DNA of 37,487 nt from a virus. Position 1 is the first letter of the stretch. The number at the start of each line of letters is the position of its first letter. The notes under the pieces were generated by a model. The model was not told the origin of the DNA. It searched no databases and was given only the letters and a program-made list of their open reading frames with translations. The position numbers were made by a program, and so were the translations under genes. This document shows positions 1,048 to 29,863 of the stretch, piece by piece. The stretch is from positions 1 to 37,487 of IMG/VR virus record IMGVR_UViG_3300021959_000148; one strand, written 5' to 3'.

Positions 1048-1076
1048 TATACATAAGGGTTTCAGAGTGGTATAAT
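1048..1076 (+). promoter_or_regulatory. Plus-strand promoter (TATACA-17-TATAAT)
   Basis: CCCCTATACA ends the -35 region (TATACA 1048-1053), followed by 17 bp and TATAAT (1071-1076). The same unusual -35, CCCCTATACA with a 17-bp spacer, is found upstream of uvsX (32316-32348). The start would be near 1083, giving a leader of about 72 nt. Confidence 0.6.
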
Positions 1077-1090
1077 AGTTTTAAGTAACC

Positions 1091-1136
1091 GAGAAACGTA
1101 GATATATCCAAGGTGGAATAGTTACACGTCTCTCAA
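1091..1136 (+). promoter_or_regulatory. Hairpin in the leader of the nuclease gene
   Basis: GAGAAACGT (from 1091) can pair with ACGTCTCTC (up to 1135) with one mismatch, enclosing a loop of about 27 nt. It lies between the promoter and the ribosome binding site AGGAGTAACCT, so it may affect mRNA stability or translation. Confidence 0.35.
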
Positions 1137-1154
1137 AAACAATAGGAGTAACCT

Positions 1155-1703
1155 ATGAACTTTGAAATAAGTCAGACCTTAGATGGTCACATACAGACCT
1201 ATGATACACCTCCATCAGCAGGTAAATCAGGTCAGAAAACAGGTGCAGAGTTTGAAAAAGAAGTCTTTGATTTCCTCACCTACAATGATATAAGTGTCCC
1301 TACACATTACCGTGATAATAAACGAATTGTTACACGTCCTGTCTACACTAATTATGTGGGCGCAAGAGGTAAAAAGGGTGATATGACTGCAATCATTAAT
1401 GGTAAACAGTATCATGTTGAGTGTAAAAGACTTAACACTTGTGAGAGTCATATAGAGAAACTTGCATATATCGACTTAAACCTGAGACATAATTGTTATA
1501 AATCGCAGCTCGTGTTAGTGTATTCTATAGGGTTGGTACCTGATAATAAGTACAATGAAGTGCAAAACATGATGAATTCGATACGTGATGCAGGTGGGTT
1601 GGTGTTTGAATATAATGAATTTAGGAGTTGGATATATGAGTCCAAAAACAAGAAAGATACATCAAGAGACTATTACAACAGTCTTTACAGGATTACTGAT
1701 TAA
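1155..1703 (+). CDS. PD-(D/E)XK nuclease-like protein
   Basis: 182 aa, the first of only two plus-strand genes. Residues about 29-40 (KTGAEFEKEVFDFL) form an early acidic helix, and residues about 74-92 carry the core: GKKGD, a beta-strand IING, then YHVECKRL. The D...E-x-K pattern is the catalytic signature of the PD-(D/E)XK nuclease fold, which includes restriction enzymes, Holliday junction resolvases and phage nucleases. I cannot assign a subfamily. A good RBS (AGGAGTAACCT) precedes the ATG, and a promoter lies about 80 bp upstream. It overlaps the next gene by 68 bp. Plausible roles are host DNA degradation, exclusion of other phages or recombination; the sequence does not decide. Confidence 0.6.
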   Translation: MNFEISQTLDGHIQTYDTPPSAGKSGQKTGAEFEKEVFDFLTYNDISVPTHYRDNKRIVTRPVYTNYVGARGKKGDMTAIINGKQYHVECKRLNTCESHIEKLAYIDLNLRHNCYKSQLVLVYSIGLVPDNKYNEVQNMMNSIRDAGGLVFEYNEFRSWIYESKNKKDTSRDYYNSLYRITD

Positions 1704-1875
1704 TTACCCTTTGAATCTATTGGGTTTGTATATTTGTATTGACCTATTGGGGTGGTCTGATACGTTTTTAATAGGTACTACGATTACCCTATGGATGACA
1801 CTTGTTGCATACACTAGAGTGTTTCTGATTCGCCGTCACTTTTACAATAAAGCACATATCGATTCTGATAACTAA
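1636..1875 (+). CDS. Small two-helix membrane protein (DUF7220-like)
   Basis: 79 aa starting at MSPKTRKIHQE, with AGGAGTTG 7-8 nt upstream inside the nuclease gene. Two hydrophobic segments (about residues 13-35 and 40-60) are followed by a basic end containing RVFLIRRHF. The layout, a short polar start, two membrane helices and an arginine-rich RR tail, resembles the DUF7220-type small phage membrane proteins; this assignment is from memory and tentative. The longer frame to 1585 lacks an RBS. The gene ends 62 bp inside the convergent oxygenase gene on the other strand. Confidence 0.55.
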   Translation: MSPKTRKIHQETITTVFTGLLINYPLNLLGLYICIDLLGWSDTFLIGTTITLWMTLVAYTRVFLIRRHFYNKAHIDSDN

Positions 1876-2497
1876 CCGTCTTTTGATACATGGGTTTCTT
1901 TACGTATACGTCTAGTGCCATGGAGACACGTGGTTGTTGATATTGATTGGTTTTGACTTCGTGTTCGAGTCTATGTCCGACTATGGTGAGTTTCCCTACC
2001 TCGTTTGGTGTATATGAGGGTCGAGCGTCCCTGTAGTAGTGTGTACCAGTCTTGGGGTTACCTGATAAAAACATGTTGCAGGGTATTACCTGATTAGGGT
2101 GATATTCATGGAAATGTCTATGCAGGTCTTCTCCTTGTCTCAGAACGTTGCACCAGCATTGTAATAATACCCAATCCAAGTCTTTAAATTCATCCAGTCC
2201 CAACAAGCGTTGTGGTATATTCAGACGTTGGAAGTCAGGGTGATTTAACCAGTTATAGACATCATGTTGTCTTGTGAGACCCTTATAGGGTTTAGTGGAG
2301 GGGTTTGGTATGGCTTTGATTCTTTCTTCGTCTCTGAGGACGATATGAGTCATATAGTCGCATTCGTCAGGTGTGAAGAATGTATCAACTTCATTATAAT
2401 AATAGGGGTCTAAGTCGAGACCCCTATTATCTTGAAGATATAACCTGTCTTCTTGTTGGTTATAATATTTGAGAATTTCTTGTTTTACAAAACCCAT
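1814..2497 (-). CDS. 2OG-Fe(II) oxygenase-like protein
   Basis: 227 aa, the last gene of the leftward unit, overlapping the convergent plus-strand gene. The C-terminal half resembles phage 2-oxoglutarate/Fe(II) oxygenases of the PF13759 type: a histidine-rich LHRHFHEYHP where metal ligands are expected, then GKLTIVGHRLEHEV with the distal histidine, and RVSMALDVYV, the equivalent of the RISIAFD strand. The HxD pair seen in the other oxygenases here appears as HxH or HxxH, so activity is uncertain. Its start overlaps the glycosyltransferase-like gene by 13 bp. The substrate is unknown. Confidence 0.55.
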   Translation of the reverse strand: MGFVKQEILKYYNQQEDRLYLQDNRGLDLDPYYYNEVDTFFTPDECDYMTHIVLRDEERIKAIPNPSTKPYKGLTRQHDVYNWLNHPDFQRLNIPQRLLGLDEFKDLDWVLLQCWCNVLRQGEDLHRHFHEYHPNQVIPCNMFLSGNPKTGTHYYRDARPSYTPNEVGKLTIVGHRLEHEVKTNQYQQPRVSMALDVYVKKPMYQKTVSYQNRYVLYCKSDGESETL

Positions 2498-3357
2498 AGG
2501 TGTAGGTACCTATCCGTAAATGGGTCTTTGTTGTCTTCTCCTCTTTCCAACACTAAGAATGAGCATTGTTTGGTGATGTCACGATATTCATGATTGAATT
2601 CGATGAATTTCGCTTCAGGTTCACCACCCATACCTCTCCAGTTATCAGGATTAGATTCGAATTCAGGTCTGACGATGTCCTCATACAGGTCATTGACTTC
2701 CTTATTCTTTGCAACATTGTCGACATGGTAACCACCGAAGGTACCCTTTTTGACTGGTAAAACAAACCCTTCGAATTCGTTCTCATAGAAATCAGCAACG
2801 TTATCGTACTTGGTTTGATACCCTTCAGGGTCTGTCATGAACTTACGATAAACATCACGTGTGTCACCTGCAACAAAACCAAAATAACAGTCACTGTACG
2901 TATGTTCAGTGTCCCACCACTTTTCAGTTAGATGAATAAAGGGTAGGTTGTTGTCTGTGATATTGGTAATTTGTTCTGCATTGAACTTAAACGTTGTCTC
3001 ACTAGTAGTCCCTCTGTCAGGGATACCATCAAAACAGAATCCTCCTGCTAGGTCACGTGCAATGATGTTTGCATCGAAATACATGGTCTTAGTACCAGCA
3101 CCGAAGAAATCATCGTAATTATGCAGTTCTAGTGGAATAAATTTAGGGTTGGTGATTTTATCGTTACCCAAATAAGGAATAACACGAATGTCTTCATCCA
3201 ATCCTGTCTTGTCGTCAGTCAATACGTTTAGACGACAATTTTGAAATCCTACGTCACGTAAGACTCGAATACGGTCTAAGGATAATTTGAATCGATTGAT
3301 GTCCTCAGTCGTTACACCATTATCCTTGGTTTTTATACAAACTAATTCAATAGCCAT
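2485..3357 (-). CDS. Glycosyltransferase-like protein (tentative)
   Basis: 290 aa. The N-terminal 110 residues read like a GT-A nucleotide-sugar fold: a strand around LVCIKT, a helix, CRLNVLTDD, a strand around IRVIPY, then KTMYFDANIIARDL, which sits where GT-A enzymes have their metal-binding DxD (here D-A-N). The rest is not recognised. If correct, it would move a sugar onto a protein or nucleic acid. A RBS (TTGGAGAT) lies about 11 nt upstream. Its neighbours (oxygenase, sulfotransferase) also suggest modification chemistry. The substitution in DxD lowers confidence. Confidence 0.4.
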   Translation of the reverse strand: MAIELVCIKTKDNGVTTEDINRFKLSLDRIRVLRDVGFQNCRLNVLTDDKTGLDEDIRVIPYLGNDKITNPKFIPLELHNYDDFFGAGTKTMYFDANIIARDLAGGFCFDGIPDRGTTSETTFKFNAEQITNITDNNLPFIHLTEKWWDTEHTYSDCYFGFVAGDTRDVYRKFMTDPEGYQTKYDNVADFYENEFEGFVLPVKKGTFGGYHVDNVAKNKEVNDLYEDIVRPEFESNPDNWRGMGGEPEAKFIEFNHEYRDITKQCSFLVLERGEDNKDPFTDRYLHLWVL

Positions 3358-3382
3358 TTTATATTATATCTCCAATAATAAA

Positions 3383-3721
3383 TTAACTTCTTCGCATCCG
3401 TGCAATATCTTTTGCATGTTCCTTGTCTTCCATGAAGATAGGCACCATGTTAGATTTGTGCATGGTTGCGATTCCTAACAATTTCCTCTCGCCACTATAC
3501 ACCATGGGTTCTTGACGTGGGGTCAAGTTTCCAGTTGTATGTGTGACTAGGGATGGAATTTCTTCCTTCACTTCTCTCATCACTTGGTCATAAATCTTCT
3601 GTTGTTGAGAGATTAGTTCATTATATTTAGTACGTTTTGACACAGTCTTAAAAGCATTGGTTTTTCTTTTCTTACCATGTGGCCCGTACTTGATACTTGA
3701 ACCTAAATTTAAAAATCCCAT
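3383..3721 (-). CDS. Conserved T4-like phage protein, function unknown
   Basis: 112 aa, basic in the first third (KYGPHGKKRKTNAFK) with a conserved-looking end (GIATMHKSNMVPIF, then KDIARMRRS). I have seen this arrangement in proteins of marine T4-like phages but know no function. It has its own promoter (3754-3782) and a leader of about 26 nt. Nothing suggests a membrane segment or an enzyme motif. Confidence 0.65.
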   Translation of the reverse strand: MGFLNLGSSIKYGPHGKKRKTNAFKTVSKRTKYNELISQQQKIYDQVMREVKEEIPSLVTHTTGNLTPRQEPMVYSGERKLLGIATMHKSNMVPIFMEDKEHAKDIARMRRS

Positions 3722-3753
3722 AACTGACTCACTTATAATACAGTAATACTTCT

Positions 3754-3782
3754 ATTGTACTACAGATGAGTCGTTCTGTCAA
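3754..3782 (-). promoter_or_regulatory. Early promoter (TTGACA-17-TACAAT)
   Basis: Minus-strand TTGACA (3777-3782), 17 bp, TACAAT (3754-3759). The -35 overlaps the stop codon of the upstream gene. The spacer start (GAA) and end (CTGTAG) resemble those of the gp43 promoter. Confidence 0.7.
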
Positions 3783-3997
3783 TAGTGTTCTTCGTCTTTG
3801 TACATGAGTTTGTAGTCATCGTCTACCACTCTGAGTTCAATGCCGTTGTCTGTCACGTTGCACACTAGAGTGTCACCTAGTTCCAGTCCCAACATCTGTT
3901 GAGAAATCCCTGCATCTAATCGAATACCACTTTCCATCACTTCAATAACGTATCCATGAAGTGTTACCGACCTACGGTCTCTATCTTGTTCAGTCAT
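3779..3997 (-). CDS. Small protein, function unknown
   Basis: 72 aa beginning MTEQDRDRRSV, with AAGGAGA placed well upstream. The longer frame to 4033 lies inside mazG and is rejected. The alternating pattern (VTLHGYVIEVMESGIRL, LGLELGDTLVCNV, GIELRVV) suggests a small beta-barrel, but I recognise no family. It follows mazG by 10 nt and should be co-translated with it. Confidence 0.6.
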   Translation of the reverse strand: MTEQDRDRRSVTLHGYVIEVMESGIRLDAGISQQMLGLELGDTLVCNVTDNGIELRVVDDDYKLMYKDEEHY

Positions 3998-4007
3998 TTT
4001 AGTCTCC

Positions 4008-4310
4008 TTAGACTTCTTTGATAAAAATACCATCGACCATCTTTCCTTTACGGTCTTTGATATCCATCCATGCTTGGTTCATACAGTCACCCAAGGATAG
4101 ATTGTTTCGTGTTGCAATGTTAATTAACACTACAATACAGTCTCCGATGTCGTCTGCAACATCCTTACCCTTGCATACGTTGTCACTGAGTTCACCGACT
4201 TCTTGAATCAGTTTGCATACTTGGTCTTTATCGTTTGCACCTTCGATAAGGTTTCTATCGTAGTGCCATTGTTTGATATTCTGTTCTAGTACATCTAAAT
4301 CGTATCTCAT
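4008..4310 (-). CDS. MazG-like nucleotide pyrophosphohydrolase
   Basis: 100 aa, the size of a single MazG-type domain. The signature is EVGEL (residues 37-41) followed by ADDIGD (52-57), an ExxE...DxxD arrangement that binds Mg2+ and nucleoside triphosphates in an all-alpha fold. Members hydrolyse (d)NTPs to monophosphates; phage versions have been proposed to alter the nucleotide pool or (p)ppGpp signalling. GAGGA lies upstream of the ATG. It sits directly after two tRNA genes, apparently in one transcript. Confidence 0.8.
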   Translation of the reverse strand: MRYDLDVLEQNIKQWHYDRNLIEGANDKDQVCKLIQEVGELSDNVCKGKDVADDIGDCIVVLINIATRNNLSLGDCMNQAWMDIKDRKGKMVDGIFIKEV

Positions 4311-4333
4311 TACTGAGTCCTCATGTTAAAAAA

Positions 4334-4421
4334 TGGCGGAGAGGGTGGGATTCGAACCCACGGAACCTTTCGGTTCGCTGGTTTTCAAGACCAGTCTATT
4401 CGACCACTCTAGCACCTCTCC
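4334..4421 (-). tRNA. tRNA-Ser (UGA)
   Basis: 88 nt with a 7-bp acceptor stem (GGAGAGG/CCTCTCC), discriminator G and encoded CCA. The anticodon loop CTTGAAA gives UGA, and the long variable arm (CGAACCGAAAGGTTCCG) is typical of serine tRNAs. It lies 4 nt after tRNA-Ala. Confidence 0.95.
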
Positions 4422-4425
4422 TTCA

Positions 4426-4501
4426 TGGTGGAGCTGGGCGGGTTCGAACCGCCGACCCCCTGCTTGCAAAGCAGGTGCTCTCCCAACTGAGCTACAGCCC
4501 C
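4426..4501 (-). tRNA. tRNA-Ala (UGC)
   Basis: 76 nt, acceptor GGGGCTG/CAGCTCC (one G-U), anticodon loop TTTGCAA giving UGC, T-loop TTCGAAC and encoded CCA. Its 5' end overlaps the last codons and the stop of the sulfotransferase gene by 10 nt. Confidence 0.95.
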
Positions 4502-5175
4502 AAATCAAAATCTTCTTTCCATAACCATTGTACAAACAGTTTGGTCTGTTCGTCAAGGGGAAATTTGGGTAATATAAAATCATTTAGCATCTTTTTTGAT
4601 GCATCTTCATTCGTCCATACTTTTGTGGTAAAATCTACAGACACATTATTACAGATGGGTGCAACCTCTCCTCTAACGTCCTTGATATGTATGGTACGTG
4701 CAAAAGGTTTACCGTCTCTACATATCCATCGTGCCTGTGGTGACATAATCATGTTAGTGTACACTTGATGGAATCTTGATTCACTCATCTGTCCTCTGAA
4801 CTTAGGGACACCAGTTCCGTCTACATCTAAATTCATCATCACTGGAATGAATCGAAGACAAGACACAAACCTTTCATATGGGTCACGTGTCATAGTGAAC
4901 ACATCGATGTTGTTCTCATCTATCCAGTCACCTAGTGTAGGATAGAGTTCAAATGCTTGGTCGATTGTGAGGTGAGCATGGTCATGCATTTCAACCTCTT
5001 CCATCTTTAAATTAGGATTATTAAAGAGTGGAAGAACACCATGCAGTGTCCTAAACCGATATTGATGCCCATAGTTCATTTTTACATAGTTCAGTAAAAG
5101 TGAACCTGCAGTTTTAGGTGCATGAAAAAACAACCCTTCAAATTTACGTGTTTCTAAATTTTGTAATCCGTACAT
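4492..5175 (-). CDS. Sulfotransferase family protein
   Basis: 227 aa. [16 protein letters not shown] (about residues 16-31) is the PAPS 5'-phosphosulfate binding loop (PKTGGTS type), and [13 protein letters not shown] (about 93-105) is the 3'-phosphate motif with the conserved R and S. This places it in the Sulfotransfer_2-like group, which moves sulfate from PAPS to sugars or other acceptors. The acceptor is unknown. Its start codon overlaps the stop of a small membrane ORF (TAATG), and its own TAG stop lies inside tRNA-Ala, so the mRNA is cut if the tRNA is processed from the same transcript. Confidence 0.75.
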
Positions 5176-26148: not shown

Positions 26149-27453
26149 TTATTTACTTCTCTTTGCAAGTAATTGTGCTTCTTTCCATGCAAGTGATTGT
26201 TTGTTTGCAGGGAACTTACTTGTCCATGTTAACATCTTACCGTATAGTGCATCCGATTTCTTAATCAATGCCTTGTGGTCATCGTTGTTTAGAATCTCAA
26301 TAAAGTCTTTCTTAAACAACTTTCTAAAATAGTCTACGTTCTTTTGTGATGCATTCCAATCTGCAGTTACCACTTCTTTAGGTAACTTTCTTGCACGTTC
26401 AGAGTTTCTTTGTTGTGCAAAATCTAGTGAAGTGTTAACGAATACCATCTTGTATTCGTATCCTGCTTTATCTAATAGGTTTTTATAAGATACAATTTTA
26501 CTTGCCTTTGCACCTGTAGTGTCAAAGACCATACCAAGTCTTCCTCTTAGATACGCATCCATTTGTTTTGCAGTAATTTCTTTTGCACGACTTCTGATTG
26601 GGTCTCTTAGGTCTGCATCCATGTTTCTCAAATCAAGACCAAGTCCTGCTTTCTTTAAACCGTTCTCGAATGCTTTGTCGGTGTTAACAATCTTAAGTCC
26701 TAGATTGACTAGGTTTAATTGATCCACCACAGTTGATTTACCTGACCCTGGCCCACCCATAAGGAATACTGCTTTGAAGATGCCTGGGTCATAGACACCC
26801 TCTGTAATCAAATCTTCTACCATGTACTGAGGTAGGTGTTGTAAGTCTTCTGTTAGACCCATTCCTTTACGGATATCTTTGTAAAGTTTCTGTGCAAATC
26901 GTTGTCCTGTTTTGGGTACTCCCTCTTTAAATGATTCGAAGTCACCCTTTTCTGCAAACTCTCTCATCTTAGATGCACTCATTCCTGACACATCATCTGC
27001 ATCAGGGTCACGTTCACCAGCAGAGACTATCTGAATCTCATCAAACTTATAGAAACCGTGTCTACCTTTTACTGAGTTATATTTTTTGATGATAGTATCG
27101 AATTCTCTGACCCTATCTGACCCTACTACCATTCTAATCTTAGTGTAACCTTTGTCATGTAAGAAGGTGAGGATTTGAAAAATCTGTTTTACATCTGCAT
27201 CTATTACATTCACTTGTTTACCGAAGAATGCTTTTAGATACTTAACTTTATCTTTGTGTGACAGCGGGTTCTTTACTTTATCATTTGAGTGTGAAGAAAA
27301 TAACAATGCATCACCGTATCCCTTCGCAACTTTTTGAAGTCTGTCTACTAACTTTGCATGTCCTGTAGTTGGAGGATTGAATCGACCAAAGGTGAACACT
27401 GCACCTTTACCTTTTGCTTCTGATAACCAACTTGTAAAATTTTTATTCGCCAT
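26149..27453 (-). CDS. Nucleotidyltransferase-kinase fusion (NadR-like layout)
   Basis: 434 aa from MANKNFTSWLSE (RBS AAGGTGAT). Domain 1 (about 17-200) is a cytidylyltransferase/NMN-adenylyltransferase fold: GRFNPPTTGH (23-32) and SGMSASKMRE (156-165). Domain 2 (about 225-434) is a P-loop kinase, GGPGSGKST (233-241), resembling zeta-toxin or polynucleotide-kinase-like proteins. The order matches NadR (adenylyltransferase plus kinase), but which substrates are used is not shown. The N-terminus has LSE before A, and the linker has ITE before G at residue 218, both fitting prohead-protease sites. Confidence 0.7.
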   Translation of the reverse strand: MANKNFTSWLSEAKGKGAVFTFGRFNPPTTGHAKLVDRLQKVAKGYGDALLFSSHSNDKVKNPLSHKDKVKYLKAFFGKQVNVIDADVKQIFQILTFLHDKGYTKIRMVVGSDRVREFDTIIKKYNSVKGRHGFYKFDEIQIVSAGERDPDADDVSGMSASKMREFAEKGDFESFKEGVPKTGQRFAQKLYKDIRKGMGLTEDLQHLPQYMVEDLITEGVYDPGIFKAVFLMGGPGSGKSTVVDQLNLVNLGLKIVNTDKAFENGLKKAGLGLDLRNMDADLRDPIRSRAKEITAKQMDAYLRGRLGMVFDTTGAKASKIVSYKNLLDKAGYEYKMVFVNTSLDFAQQRNSERARKLPKEVVTADWNASQKNVDYFRKLFKKDFIEILNNDDHKALIKKSDALYGKMLTWTSKFPANKQSLAWKEAQLLAKRSK

Positions 27454-27826
27454 CTTTCGTATCACCTTGTTTTTTATTCTTCATTTGTTCTTTTTTACGA
27501 ATCATTGGTAAAAGTTTCTTTGCGAGTTTTTTGATTGCAGACTTCTTCTTGTCTAACTTCTTTTCTAGTGCTTGTTTTCCACTCATACCTAGGTCACTCT
27601 TATCTGTGTCTTTCAACATCTTCTTTGCGACCATATTACGTGCTTGTTTCTCTGCACGTTTCTGTAACTTTGCAGGGTCAAGATTCTTCTTCTTCATTGC
27701 CTTTTTACGTTTTGCAAGAATCTTATGTTTGTTCTTTTGGAATGCTTTCTTTTTCTTCAGACGAGTTTGCATAGAGTCTGCTTCTTGTATCTCTTCCCAA
27801 ATTTCTCTGAATGATTTAAGTTCCAT
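27443..27826 (-). CDS. Small, extremely basic virion-type protein
   Basis: 127 aa from MELKSFREIWEEIQEADS; the longer frame to 27889 lies within the upstream gene. After the first 20 residues nearly every third residue is Lys or Arg, as in DNA-binding internal head proteins. IQE before A at residue 15 fits a prohead-protease site, so the first part may be a targeting peptide. The ATG is 5 nt after GATAAATA with no RBS. It overlaps the fusion gene by 11 bp. Confidence 0.55.
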   Translation of the reverse strand: MELKSFREIWEEIQEADSMQTRLKKKKAFQKNKHKILAKRKKAMKKKNLDPAKLQKRAEKQARNMVAKKMLKDTDKSDLGMSGKQALEKKLDKKKSAIKKLAKKLLPMIRKKEQMKNKKQGDTKDGE

Positions 27827-27830
27827 ATTA

Positions 27831-29039
27831 CTATTTATCCCAATTTTTTGCAGCGTTAAAATTATTTTGACTGAATTCCATCCTGTCAACTAACTTAACT
27901 GCCTTACCTTCTTGGTCAATTGCAACATATCCTTCAGGATTTACTGCTTTAAATCCTGTGGACGTTTTAACAAAGGTTCCAATACCTTTAACTCTGTTTA
28001 ATCCTTCTATGATAATCTGTTTTGACACTACCATCAACTCTTGGAATTTGGTTAGTGCATCAATCATAGACTTCAAACCTCTGAGTTCATTATATAACTG
28101 TTCACCAATCTCTCGTTTGATGTTCTTAGTCTTTTCTAGTTTAACTTTTGCGACTACCTTATCTCTCCAGTAGTTTTCAAAGTGTTTTAGATATCCGTTG
28201 TAGTTTGGTTTAAAAATACCAGCACGAATCTGTGCATTGCAATATGTTTTATAAGTTGCACCTGCACCTTTCTTTTCTATTGCACGTTGAACTTCTCTGA
28301 ATTTTTCGAGGTCTTTCTTTTTGATTTTGTGGAATTGTTTTCCGACTTCTGTGAGGTTGCGTGATAAACTGACCGTCTCCTTTGCTGTGAGAGTTGAGTT
28401 GCCCGAAACATCCTTATACGTTGCATCATCCATCCATACGTCTTTTGACGAACCAAGTTTAGAAATATCTGCCCCAAAGGATGCAGAAAGGTCTTCTATT
28501 GTACCACCTCTATATGTAGTATGGAAGACGATTCCTAGTTTTGCTGAAGCAATTTTTTTACCTAATTCAGAATTAGTCTGCACTCGATACACTATAGTGT
28601 TAGGCCCGAATGCAATATAGGACTCAAAGTCGTCCTTTATCATTTTCTTATCTTTTTCTGTGAACATCAAATCACCTTGGAGTATTTCATCACCCCAAGA
28701 TAGTTTGGATAGGTATTTGAATGAATCTAAAAACTTGGATTCTAGGTCACCTGAGAGTTCAGGTGCATCTTTGATTTCTTGTTCTGAAGTGTAAAATAAT
28801 GGTGTTTGATTGAATAGTGATTTCTTTGCAACGAAAAATCTTCCGTCTTCAGGATGTTTCCCACAAAAAATTGCAGGGGCACCATCCCATTTCACTGTCA
28901 TGTTGAACCCTTTCTTTGCATTACCTTTCATCATGTCACGAAGACTTAATAAAAAGTACACAGATGCACGACCACCATTAATTCCGTTATTAATGATTTC
29001 GTCTTCTAGGTGTTCTAAATGTAAATTTTTGACTGCCAT
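27831..29039 (-). CDS. Ligase-like covalent nucleotidyltransferase (DUF6267-like)
   Basis: 402 aa, conserved in T4-like phages (DUF6267, from memory). TVKWDGAPAIF has the KxDG nucleotidyl-lysine motif I of DNA/RNA ligases and capping enzymes (Lys50); LQGDLMFTEKD near 120 sits where motif IIIa (DGE) should be, NPEGYVAID near 373 where motif IV (EG) and GKAVKLVDR near 384 where motif V (KxK) should be. Taken together it looks like a ligase-fold enzyme. The target, and whether it joins ends or only transfers a nucleotide, is unknown. Motif matches are mine and not tested by alignment. Confidence 0.55.
   Translation of the reverse strand: MAVKNLHLEHLEDEIINNGINGGRASVYFLLSLRDMMKGNAKKGFNMTVKWDGAPAIFCGKHPEDGRFFVAKKSLFNQTPLFYTSEQEIKDAPELSGDLESKFLDSFKYLSKLSWGDEILQGDLMFTEKDKKMIKDDFESYIAFGPNTIVYRVQTNSELGKKIASAKLGIVFHTTYRGGTIEDLSASFGADISKLGSSKDVWMDDATYKDVSGNSTLTAKETVSLSRNLTEVGKQFHKIKKKDLEKFREVQRAIEKKGAGATYKTYCNAQIRAGIFKPNYNGYLKHFENYWRDKVVAKVKLEKTKNIKREIGEQLYNELRGLKSMIDALTKFQELMVVSKQIIIEGLNRVKGIGTFVKTSTGFKAVNPEGYVAIDQEGKAVKLVDRMEFSQNNFNAAKNWDK
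27832..27839 (-). promoter_or_regulatory. Late promoter-like GATAAATA box
   Basis: GATAAATA followed by GTAAT and ATG on the minus strand. It overlaps the stop codon of the ligase-like gene (AAATAG). Confidence 0.5.
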
Positions 29040-29040
29040 A

Positions 29041-29078
29041 ATAGTAGTATATCACCTTTTTCGATGTAATACTACTAT
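29041..29078 (-). promoter_or_regulatory. 5' leader hairpin of the ligase-like gene
   Basis: ATAGTAGTAT (29069-29078 read on the minus strand) pairs perfectly with ATACTACTAT (29041-29050) around an 18-nt loop that contains the RBS AAAGGTGAT. The stem ends 1 nt before the start codon, so it can influence initiation. Confidence 0.55.
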
Positions 29079-29083
29079 TTATG
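29076..29083 (-). promoter_or_regulatory. Late promoter CATAAATA
   Basis: CATAAATA followed by GTAGTAT on the minus strand, 36 nt before the ligase-like gene. The transcript would begin in or near the first arm of the hairpin. Confidence 0.55.
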
Positions 29084-29095
29084 GTTATTTATTTC

Positions 29096-29501: not shown

Positions 29502-29513
29502 AGTACTATTTAG
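29502..29513 (-). promoter_or_regulatory. Late promoter-like box CTAAATAGTACT
   Basis: Identical to the box at 18751-18762. It lies in the end of the 57-aa gene, 22 nt before the 127-aa gene. Confidence 0.6.
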
Positions 29514-29683
29514 GATTTTGACAATGGTGACTGAGATAATTTTGTTTCTATTTGTTTAATTTTTGTGGCACATTCAGTAACAGAAGATTGGTCTCCCTCT
29601 TTCTTTGCAGAACGGAGTTCTTTTTTCAATCTAATCTTCTTTTGCAGAAGGTCAATTACATCTTGTGATTTCAACGTTTTCAT
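29510..29683 (-). CDS. 57-aa helical protein, unknown
   Basis: Starts MKTLKSQDVIDLLQKKIRLK and is rich in Lys, Glu and Ser; probably one long helix hairpin. A longer frame to 29836 would cross two tRNA genes and is rejected. A perfect late promoter TATAAATA (29695-29702) stands 11 nt before the ATG. First gene of the late cluster; no homologue recognised. Confidence 0.55.
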   Translation of the reverse strand: MKTLKSQDVIDLLQKKIRLKKELRSAKKEGDQSSVTECATKIKQIETKLSQSPLSKS

Positions 29684-29694
29684 AATACTAGTGG

Positions 29695-29702
29695 TATTTA
29701 TA
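29695..29702 (-). promoter_or_regulatory. Late promoter TATAAATA
   Basis: Perfect octamer on the minus strand between tRNA-Asp and the 57-aa gene; it opens the late cluster. Confidence 0.75.
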
Positions 29703-29711
29703 TACCAAAAA

Positions 29712-29788
29712 TGGCGACCTGTAGGGGACTCGAACCCCTGACCTCTGCCGTGACAGGGCAGCGTTCTAACCAACTGAACTAACAGGCC
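29712..29788 (-). tRNA. tRNA-Asp (GUC)
   Basis: 77 nt, acceptor GGCCTGT/ACAGGTC (one G-U), anticodon loop CTGTCAC giving GUC, encoded CCA. It touches tRNA-Glu with no gap. Confidence 0.93.
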
Positions 29789-29863
29789 TGGCACCCTGTA
29801 GGAGAATCGAACTCCTGTTGCATGGATGAAAACCATGTGTCCTAACCACTAGACGAACAGGGC
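29789..29863 (-). tRNA. tRNA-Glu (UUC)
   Basis: 75 nt, acceptor GCCCTGT/ACAGGGT, anticodon loop TTTTCAT giving UUC, encoded CCA directly followed by the first G of tRNA-Asp. Its 5' end lies 9 nt after the -10 box, so the precursor has almost no leader. Confidence 0.93.

Follow-up and report, generated by a model that had tools for sequence, protein, structure and literature searches.

A probable virion-borne nucleotidyltransferase-kinase preprotein with predicted leader-type cut sites in a T4-type marine phage

The fused gene and its neighbours

The window, i.e. the whole stretch of DNA analysed here (37,487 nucleotides, IMG/VR virus record IMGVR_UViG_3300021959_000148), covers 37 kb of a T4-type phage genome. 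It contains an ORF of 434 aa at 26149..27453 on the minus strand (ATG at 27453, stop codon at 26151-26149) that codes for a fusion of two enzymes. Inspection of the reading frames revealed many stops on the plus strand of this segment. An earlier note on this DNA had given the correct coordinates and did not state the strand. The first half is a HIGH-superfamily nucleotidyltransferase domain (residues 13-202; 26848..27417, minus strand), as indicated by VIA-align and by a Pfam CTP_transf_like match at residues 21-162 (28.4 bits vs a cut-off of 21). The second half is a P-loop kinase domain of the AAA_33/zeta/PSTK/Pnk type (residues 219-434; 26152..26799, minus strand), assigned by Pfam, Foldseek, hhalign and a PDB profile search. 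Its AAA_33 match at residues 229-373 scores 53 bits (cut-off 27) and its Zeta_toxin match 38.4 bits (cut-off 22.3), which together with the P-loop places it among the AAA_33/Zeta_toxin kinases. The combination of a nucleotidyltransferase with a P-loop kinase, proposed in the earlier note, is thereby borne out.

A viral-contig scan yielded 151 relatives among 157 candidate stretches, and 80 IMG/VR loci were kept. With the window's own protein, these gave 81 proteins, 48 of them unique, from which 20 representatives with less than 90% identity were chosen. The motif GRFNPPTTGH (residues 23-32; 27358..27387, minus strand) is invariant at nine of ten positions (T30 in 19/20). SGMSASKMR (residues 156-164; 26962..26988, minus strand) is invariant at seven of nine (S156 in 19/20, M163 in 18/20), and the P-loop GGPGSGKST (residues 233-241; 26731..26757, minus strand) at eight of nine (T241 in 16/20). 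T29, G31, H32 and R164 of the nucleotidyltransferase are the same in all representatives, in agreement with its CTP_transf_like membership. The catalytic motifs are thus intact across these relatives, and the mutation of catalytic residues that the earlier note had named as a refutation of its reading is not observed. An AlphaFold2 model of the fusion built from 20 sequences has a mean pLDDT of 73. Values below 50 were obtained for residues 1-14, 152-154, 201-224, 265-273, 293-295 and 297-306, and in the kinase half the means of 10-residue blocks are 47-56 from residue 251 to 310.

The fusion is surrounded by genes for DNA polymerase, UvsX, a DnaB-like helicase, primase and ribonucleotide reductase, and the gene order is that found around the homologs in Pelagibacter phage HTVC008M. 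Upstream, a basic protein of 127 aa (27443..27826, minus strand) begins with MELKSFREIWEEIQE/AD..., which contains a leader-like IQE/A judged from its sequence (here and below, the slash marks the predicted cut or the aligned junction). The second gene upstream (27831..29039, minus strand) codes for a DUF6267 protein (Pfam, 319.3 bits), which is predicted to be a nucleotidyltransferase of the nucleic-acid ligase type. The nucleic-acid ligase superfamily is marked by a covalent nucleotidyltransferase fold with KxDG. In 33 DUF6267 sequences, KWDG (50-53), EG (369-370) and K382 are invariant. A model built from these 33 sequences has a mean pLDDT of 78.4, and 42 of the 50 listed VIA-align rows are DNA or RNA ligases (Z 6.1-7.5), with helical DnaK pieces interleaved. 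Foldseek returned nothing for this model at E <= 0.001, and the DUF6267 profile found nothing in the PDB at E <= 1. Because the Z values are below 8 and Foldseek gave no match at that threshold, the ligase reading is a prediction. In total, 461 phage records match DUF6267, 446 of which are named Synechococcus, Cyanophage or Prochlorococcus. A comparison of N-termini revealed no leader on DUF6267 in the clade of the window, and some relatives have one (MYSFKQYLNE/A in locus L166, MKSFKKYIAE/A in L173).

Three further observations concern this region. The gene preceding DUF6267 in phages Melnitz-3 and HTVC008M (L084:2314-3399 and L082:3212-4270) has a leader-like start (MQGFKTFLSE/A and NLSE/A, respectively) and no Pfam match at E <= 0.01. 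The late-promoter motif ATAAATA occurs eight times in the window, vs 9.5 expected by chance, and all eight copies are on the coding strand. Two of them (29076-29092, minus strand) lie close upstream of the DUF6267 start codon, their ends about 37 and 47 bases away from it, a position only suggestive of late promoters. An ORF listed at 29510-29836 (minus strand) is probably spurious, since it covers the tRNA-Asp gene at 29712-29788 and part of the tRNA-Glu gene at 29789-29863.

Leader-type sites at the N-terminus and in the linker

The T4 prohead protease gp21 is reported to cut after L/I-x-E (PMC9026906). An N-terminal leader ending in this motif is a trait of T4-type internal proteins, and it is present in the fusion. 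Residues 1-12 (27418..27453, minus strand) resemble a capsid-targeting leader that ends in LSE in the window, with a predicted cut before A13; this assignment is based on conservation and on a pLDDT below 50 for residues 1-14. Among the 20 representatives, P3 is L (11), I (5), M (3) or V (1), P1 is Glu in all and P1' is Ala in 18. The linker contains ITE (216-218; 26800..26808, minus strand) before G219. Here, Glu and Gly are found in 20/20, P3 is I (17), V (2) or L (1), and the middle residue T (12), Q (5) or K (3). Both sites had been named in the earlier note, and both are present and conserved. That note had missed another conserved site, LTE at 200-202 (26848..26856, minus strand), for which a cut before D203 is predicted. 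P3 is I in 18 and L in two representatives, Glu is found in 20/20, and the middle residue has an entropy of 1.92. The next residue is G (15), D (3) or S (2), the window having D at P1'. At all three sites, Glu is fixed in 20/20 while the middle residue varies. The linker between the last two sites, residues 203-218 (26800..26847, minus strand), is predicted to be excised and is a candidate for a retained kinase leader: pLDDT is below 50 for residues 201-224, and in the alignment it ends where the leaders of separate kinases do, a match that had likewise gone unnoticed.

In many phages, the nucleotidyltransferase and kinase domains occur apart from each other. The kinase of phage Melnitz-3 has its own gene and starts with MKTFAELQE/GVYDPNIFKAIFL; that of HTVC008M also has its own gene and starts with MIPFILKE/GLYDPGIFKAFFL. 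In both cases, the Gly after the slash aligns with Gly219. A wider viral scan for the kinase gave at least 600 rows, from which 80 loci were kept and 79 parsed; the one left out, L120, is a fusion with IME/G. The parsed loci comprise 28 separate kinases, 35 nucleotidyltransferase fusions and 16 proteins with another or unclear start. The separate kinases have 26 unique N-termini with leaders of 8-15 residues, and in 26/26 the leader ends in [LI]xE precisely where the alignment places the linker site (P3 L in 17 and I in nine; Glu and Gly in all). Glu and Gly are also present in 23/23 unique nucleotidyltransferase fusions. Among the 11 unique proteins with other starts, Glu is found in all and L/I at P3 in ten; the eleventh, from L173, reads VEE/G. 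One of the two scan patterns contained E-G, and the junction test was therefore repeated on genome contigs with patterns restricted to the P-loop and GRLG motifs. Of the 26 loci obtained, the junction is visible in 20 (one of them a nucleotidyltransferase fusion) and not in six. All 20 visible junctions have Glu and Gly, and where P3 is visible it is L/I in 18/19 and M in one. Since separate kinases carry their own leader ending in [LI]xE at this point, the linker site looks like a retained packaging or cleavage site.

The same junction occurs in other fusions. In L172, an adenylate kinase is joined to the P-loop kinase at REFREYLNE/GVYDP, and a protein of Agrobacterium phage Atu_ph07 (L085:3254-5590) starts with MKWNDLNE/A and has the kinase joined at VTE/GVND. 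In the latter, the domain before the kinase appears ADP-ribosyltransferase-like by eye and is unmatched by Pfam. In L131, a 1195-aa ORF (1069-4653) links the kinase, here with a leader, to a PAP2 domain, a region that resembles Pol beta at a score below the cut-off, and the nucleotidyltransferase. A second P-loop kinase is present in loci L152, L157, L160, L166, L170 and L172; in L172, Pfam identifies it as an adenylate-kinase domain, and in the other five it has a leader-like start, e.g. MKTFLDFITE/A. With at least 600 rows in the viral scan, the separate and fused kinases point to a widespread family of probable injected kinases. In a search of 50,697 phage records, the whole fusion matched 533, mostly via the nucleotidyltransferase half among the matches listed, and the kinase half matched ten.

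The distribution of [LI]xE within the 20 representatives was compared with shuffled sequences; as the representatives are related, the counts are not probabilities. The motif was found 16 times in residues 1-16 (1.5 expected), 45 times in the linker region 199-224 (11.9 expected), 16 times in the nucleotidyltransferase core 17-198 (15.4 expected) and not at all in the kinase region 225-410 (18.8 expected). It is also scarce in 41 diverse kinases (5 vs 47.4 expected) and in 19 kinases of the genome-contig scan (6 vs 26.8), and ten replication or packaging enzymes of HTVC008M contain 55 vs 57 expected in sum. The HTVC008M kinase has one vs 1.7 expected. Depletion in the kinase was considered as a proof of exposure to the protease and downgraded to a supporting observation, since T4 Pnk likewise has none (2.3 expected) and two distant relatives have three (1.75 expected).

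A leader regex matched 20/20 representatives vs 2/198 HTVC008M genes, where 1.8 are expected by shuffling; this contrast is descriptive, as the regex was written after the family had been viewed and gave no match at the N-termini of T4 67, 68, 21, 22, 23, 24 and Alt. It was therefore rejected as a stand-alone genome-wide detector. A looser pattern matched 41/198 HTVC008M genes, and a slightly narrower form of it 17/20 representatives and 18/47 T4 genes. Neither pattern can serve as a detector, since the strict one misses the T4 head-protein N-termini and the looser one matches so many T4 genes.

Relationship of the two enzymes to known families

The fusion had been described as NadR-like. It shares with NadR the order of a nucleotidyltransferase followed by a P-loop kinase. 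Beyond this order, the likeness is not supported: the NadR equivalog-domain model scores 26.7 bits, far below its cut-off of 341.15, over residues 21-83 only, and the hhalign alignment to E. coli NadR is confined to the P-loop region (54 columns when the fused profile was used and 33 with that of the kinase), compared to 139 columns for T4 Pnk. In contrast to NadR, the fusion is devoid of an N-terminal DNA-binding domain and has a leader and predicted cut sites. NadR membership is not supported in view of the missed cut-off, the limited kinase alignment and the occurrence of the two domains apart. Against the PDB, phmmer found only weak matches to the whole protein (best E 0.0046), and the NadR entry 6gye matches the first domain weakly (E 0.043). 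The Foldseek and VIA-align matches listed include no NadR entries, from which a lack of such matches does not follow. For the first domain, VIA-align leaves PPAT, NadD and archaeal NMNAT tied (Z 13.0-14.6, rmsd 2.8-4.3 Å over 144-165 residues). Due to this tie, its substrate is not readable from the fold.

The kinase half resembles zeta toxin, PSTK, Pnk and nucleotide kinases, as judged from sequence and model. Its first three Foldseek matches are bacterial polynucleotide kinases, with adenylate kinase and PSTK close behind. In VIA-align, human UMP-CMP kinase (Z 14.5, rmsd 4.8, 181 residues), the best polynucleotide kinase entry (Z 13.7, 2.8, 163) and PSTK (Z 13.7, 3.2, 171) are tied within one Z unit, and this fold ranking is soft due to the low confidence of the kinase half in the AlphaFold2 model. 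The PDB profile search is led by zeta toxin (E 7.8e-6) and PSTK, with Pnk entries at E 0.056-0.1. The hhalign alignment to T4 Pnk covers 139 columns (E 7e-7). We take K15, S16, D35, R38, D85 and R126 of T4 Pnk to be the functional positions that define its type. Five of them, K15, S16, D35, D85 and R126, are matched in the alignment by K239, S240, D259, D311 and R353. R38 aligns with F262, and Phe is found here in 40/41 kinases, so that the T4 Pnk residue set is incomplete. Thus, the fusion kinase shares the fold and most of the catalytic positions compared with T4 Pnk, the bacterial Pnkp kinase, PSTK and zeta toxin, and it differs from T4 Pnk by the Phe at the R38 position and by having no phosphatase domain according to Pfam.

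Proposed packaging, processing and role

In T4, Alt and the internal proteins are reported to be injected, and the first ten residues of IPIII suffice for its packaging (PMC9026906). Alt is cut at ITE-6 and LTE-619 (PMC5694885). Its sequence contains eight [LI]xE motifs compared to these two reported cuts, which indicates that the motif alone does not ensure cutting. In T4 gp23, FGSFLTEAEIGG ends the propeptide region of 65 residues (length from PMC9026906), and a relative has MKTFGKFLTEAKDKG. A gp21-type prohead protease is encoded in all five long contigs of relatives (140-154 kb), the window itself being a 37-kb fragment. There is one kinase match per contig; the nucleotidyltransferase is present in four contigs and fused in three, and in these three fusion-bearing contigs gp23 has LxE/A at residue 52.

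Virion evidence is available for cyanophage homologs of the first domain. Virions of S-SM1 (PMC3037559), S-SZBM1 (PMC9146016) and S-CREM2 (PMC10665884) are reported to contain the cytidylyltransferase, which had not been detected in S-PM2 virions (PMC3037559). The two leaders compared read MKKFSAFLNE/A in S-SM1 and MRFRQFIIE/A in S-SZBM1. The S-PM2 copy is preceded by DUF6267 sequence and itself lacks a leader. The nucleotidyltransferase of HTVC008M starts with MKTLKELLRKK and has no leader Glu. These cyanophage proteins (T4-GC190) share with the fusion a homologous first domain, the leader in S-SM1 and S-SZBM1 and the reported presence in virions. They differ from it in that those of S-SM1, S-SZBM1, P-SSM2 and S-PM2 are devoid of a kinase, including the virion-detected S-SM1 and S-SZBM1 proteins, and have other C-terminal regions or, in S-PM2, DUF6267 in front. 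In S-SZBM1, the gene after the cytidylyltransferase (L176:3524-4897) codes for 457 aa, a length that agrees with a hypothetical protein reported in the virion proteome (PMC9146016).

From these comparisons, the fusion is probably an enzyme precursor carried in the virion of a T4-type marine phage; it would be packaged, cut in two and deliver both enzymes into the host. The 12-residue N-terminal capsid-targeting sequence would direct it into the prohead core. A gp21 homolog would then cut after Glu12, Glu202 and Glu218 and thereby remove the leader and the 16-residue linker. The free nucleotidyltransferase (13-202) and P-loop kinase (219-434) would remain in the head and be injected with the phage DNA. 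The linker site could originate from an in-frame fusion of two separately packaged genes, in which the targeting and cleavage site of the second gene was kept. That the protein belongs to the prohead, loses its N-terminus and is split into two enzymes had been suggested in the earlier note; the conserved leader and sites, the leaders of separate kinases, the virion reports in cyanophages and gp21 in five of five contigs support it by comparison, short of proof.

Three readings differ from this on packaging, cutting or pathway. The protein might be packaged and trimmed only at its N-terminus, with the linker motif serving as a structural kinase cap kept for folding and the enzymes acting in tethered form. 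Conservation of the stretch EGVYDP, which could have a structural role instead, extends well past the predicted cut in fused as well as separate kinases, and the surplus of motifs over reported cuts in Alt (PMC5694885) fits this reading as well. Against it, the middle residue of the linker site is free with both neighbours nearly fixed, model confidence is low over 201-224, separate kinases have a start Met and a leader-like sequence directly before the same junction, and a further conserved site exists at 200-202. Hence, we regard it as unlikely. Still less probable is that the two enzymes carry out NadR-type NAD salvage, in which the kinase phosphorylates nicotinamide riboside and the first domain adenylylates NMN to counteract NAD depletion by host defence. 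It would account for the domain order and for the weak scores that the first domain obtains against the NadR model and 6gye, and NadR and NadM are reported to occur in phages (PMC9503650). However, the NadR cut-off is far missed, the alignment with E. coli NadR stops at the P-loop region, the domains occur apart and the fold ranking ties PPAT, NadD and NMNAT. Finally, the protein might be absent from virions and serve as a usual metabolic fusion enzyme in infected cells, its N-terminus resembling a targeting sequence by chance. This would fit the location among replication genes and the listing of the cyanophage form among auxiliary metabolic genes, with its function unclear (PMC9146016). The conservation of the leader, separate kinases with leaders and the cytidylyltransferases found in cyanophage virions in three studies make it very improbable.

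For the virion-borne preprotein, the likeliest job, albeit a doubtful one, is to repair or modify, early in infection, nucleic-acid ends or nucleotides that host defence has damaged. A more specific reading, equally doubtful, is a packaged end-repair set in which a 5'-OH polynucleotide-type kinase and the ligase-like DUF6267 protein act on tRNA or DNA that host nucleases have cleaved. It draws on the Foldseek ranking, on the T4 Pnk alignment with its five matched residues, on the resemblance of the DUF6267 model to DNA and RNA ligases, and on the joining of kinase, PAP2 domain, weak Pol-beta-like region and nucleotidyltransferase in L131. It has to be set against the replacement of R38 by F262, the position of UMP-CMP kinase above Pnk and of PSTK level with it in the tied VIA-align ranking, the lead of zeta toxin and PSTK in the PDB profile search, the ligase Z values below 8 and the leaderless DUF6267 in the window's clade.

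The known kind to which the fusion could be assigned is the T4 internal protein, of which it would be a variant in which two enzymes are fused and a leader-derived site lies internally. With Alt and IPI-IPIII, which are internal, processed by gp21 and injected, it shares the short leader ending in L/I-x-E, the enzyme cargo (Alt) and the gp21-type protease, here in the long relative contigs. It differs from them in that one chain comprises two enzymes and has an internal site whose counterpart is the leader of a separate gene. Polyvalent proteins are also multidomain and thought to be injected from virions; their processing, however, is ascribed to built-in peptidase domains (PMC5512222), whereas that of the fusion is attributed to the prohead protease at targeting-type sites. 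Among the matches listed from the open-licence literature, no title or abstract opening described a fused phage cargo protein with an internal capsid-targeting site. The main texts of two pelagiphage and methylophage genome papers (PMC7029224, PMC9004378), searched for the gene, contain no cytidyl- or nicotinamide terms.

More generally, it is possible, at somewhat less than even confidence, that T4-type marine phages build virion cargo polyproteins: in-frame fused enzymes would each keep their capsid-targeting and cleavage site, and the prohead protease would free several injected enzymes, among them nucleotidyltransferase, Pnk-like kinase and adenylate kinase. Head maturation would then double as polyprotein processing for an injected nucleotide and nucleic-acid repair kit. 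If true, this could explain why a 'cytidylyltransferase' regarded as an auxiliary metabolic gene recurs in cyanophage virions, and it would mean that phages can merge injected enzymes without tethering them. Should the kinase and the ligase-like DUF6267 protein act on nucleic-acid ends, phages may bring along a repair kit against host nucleases.
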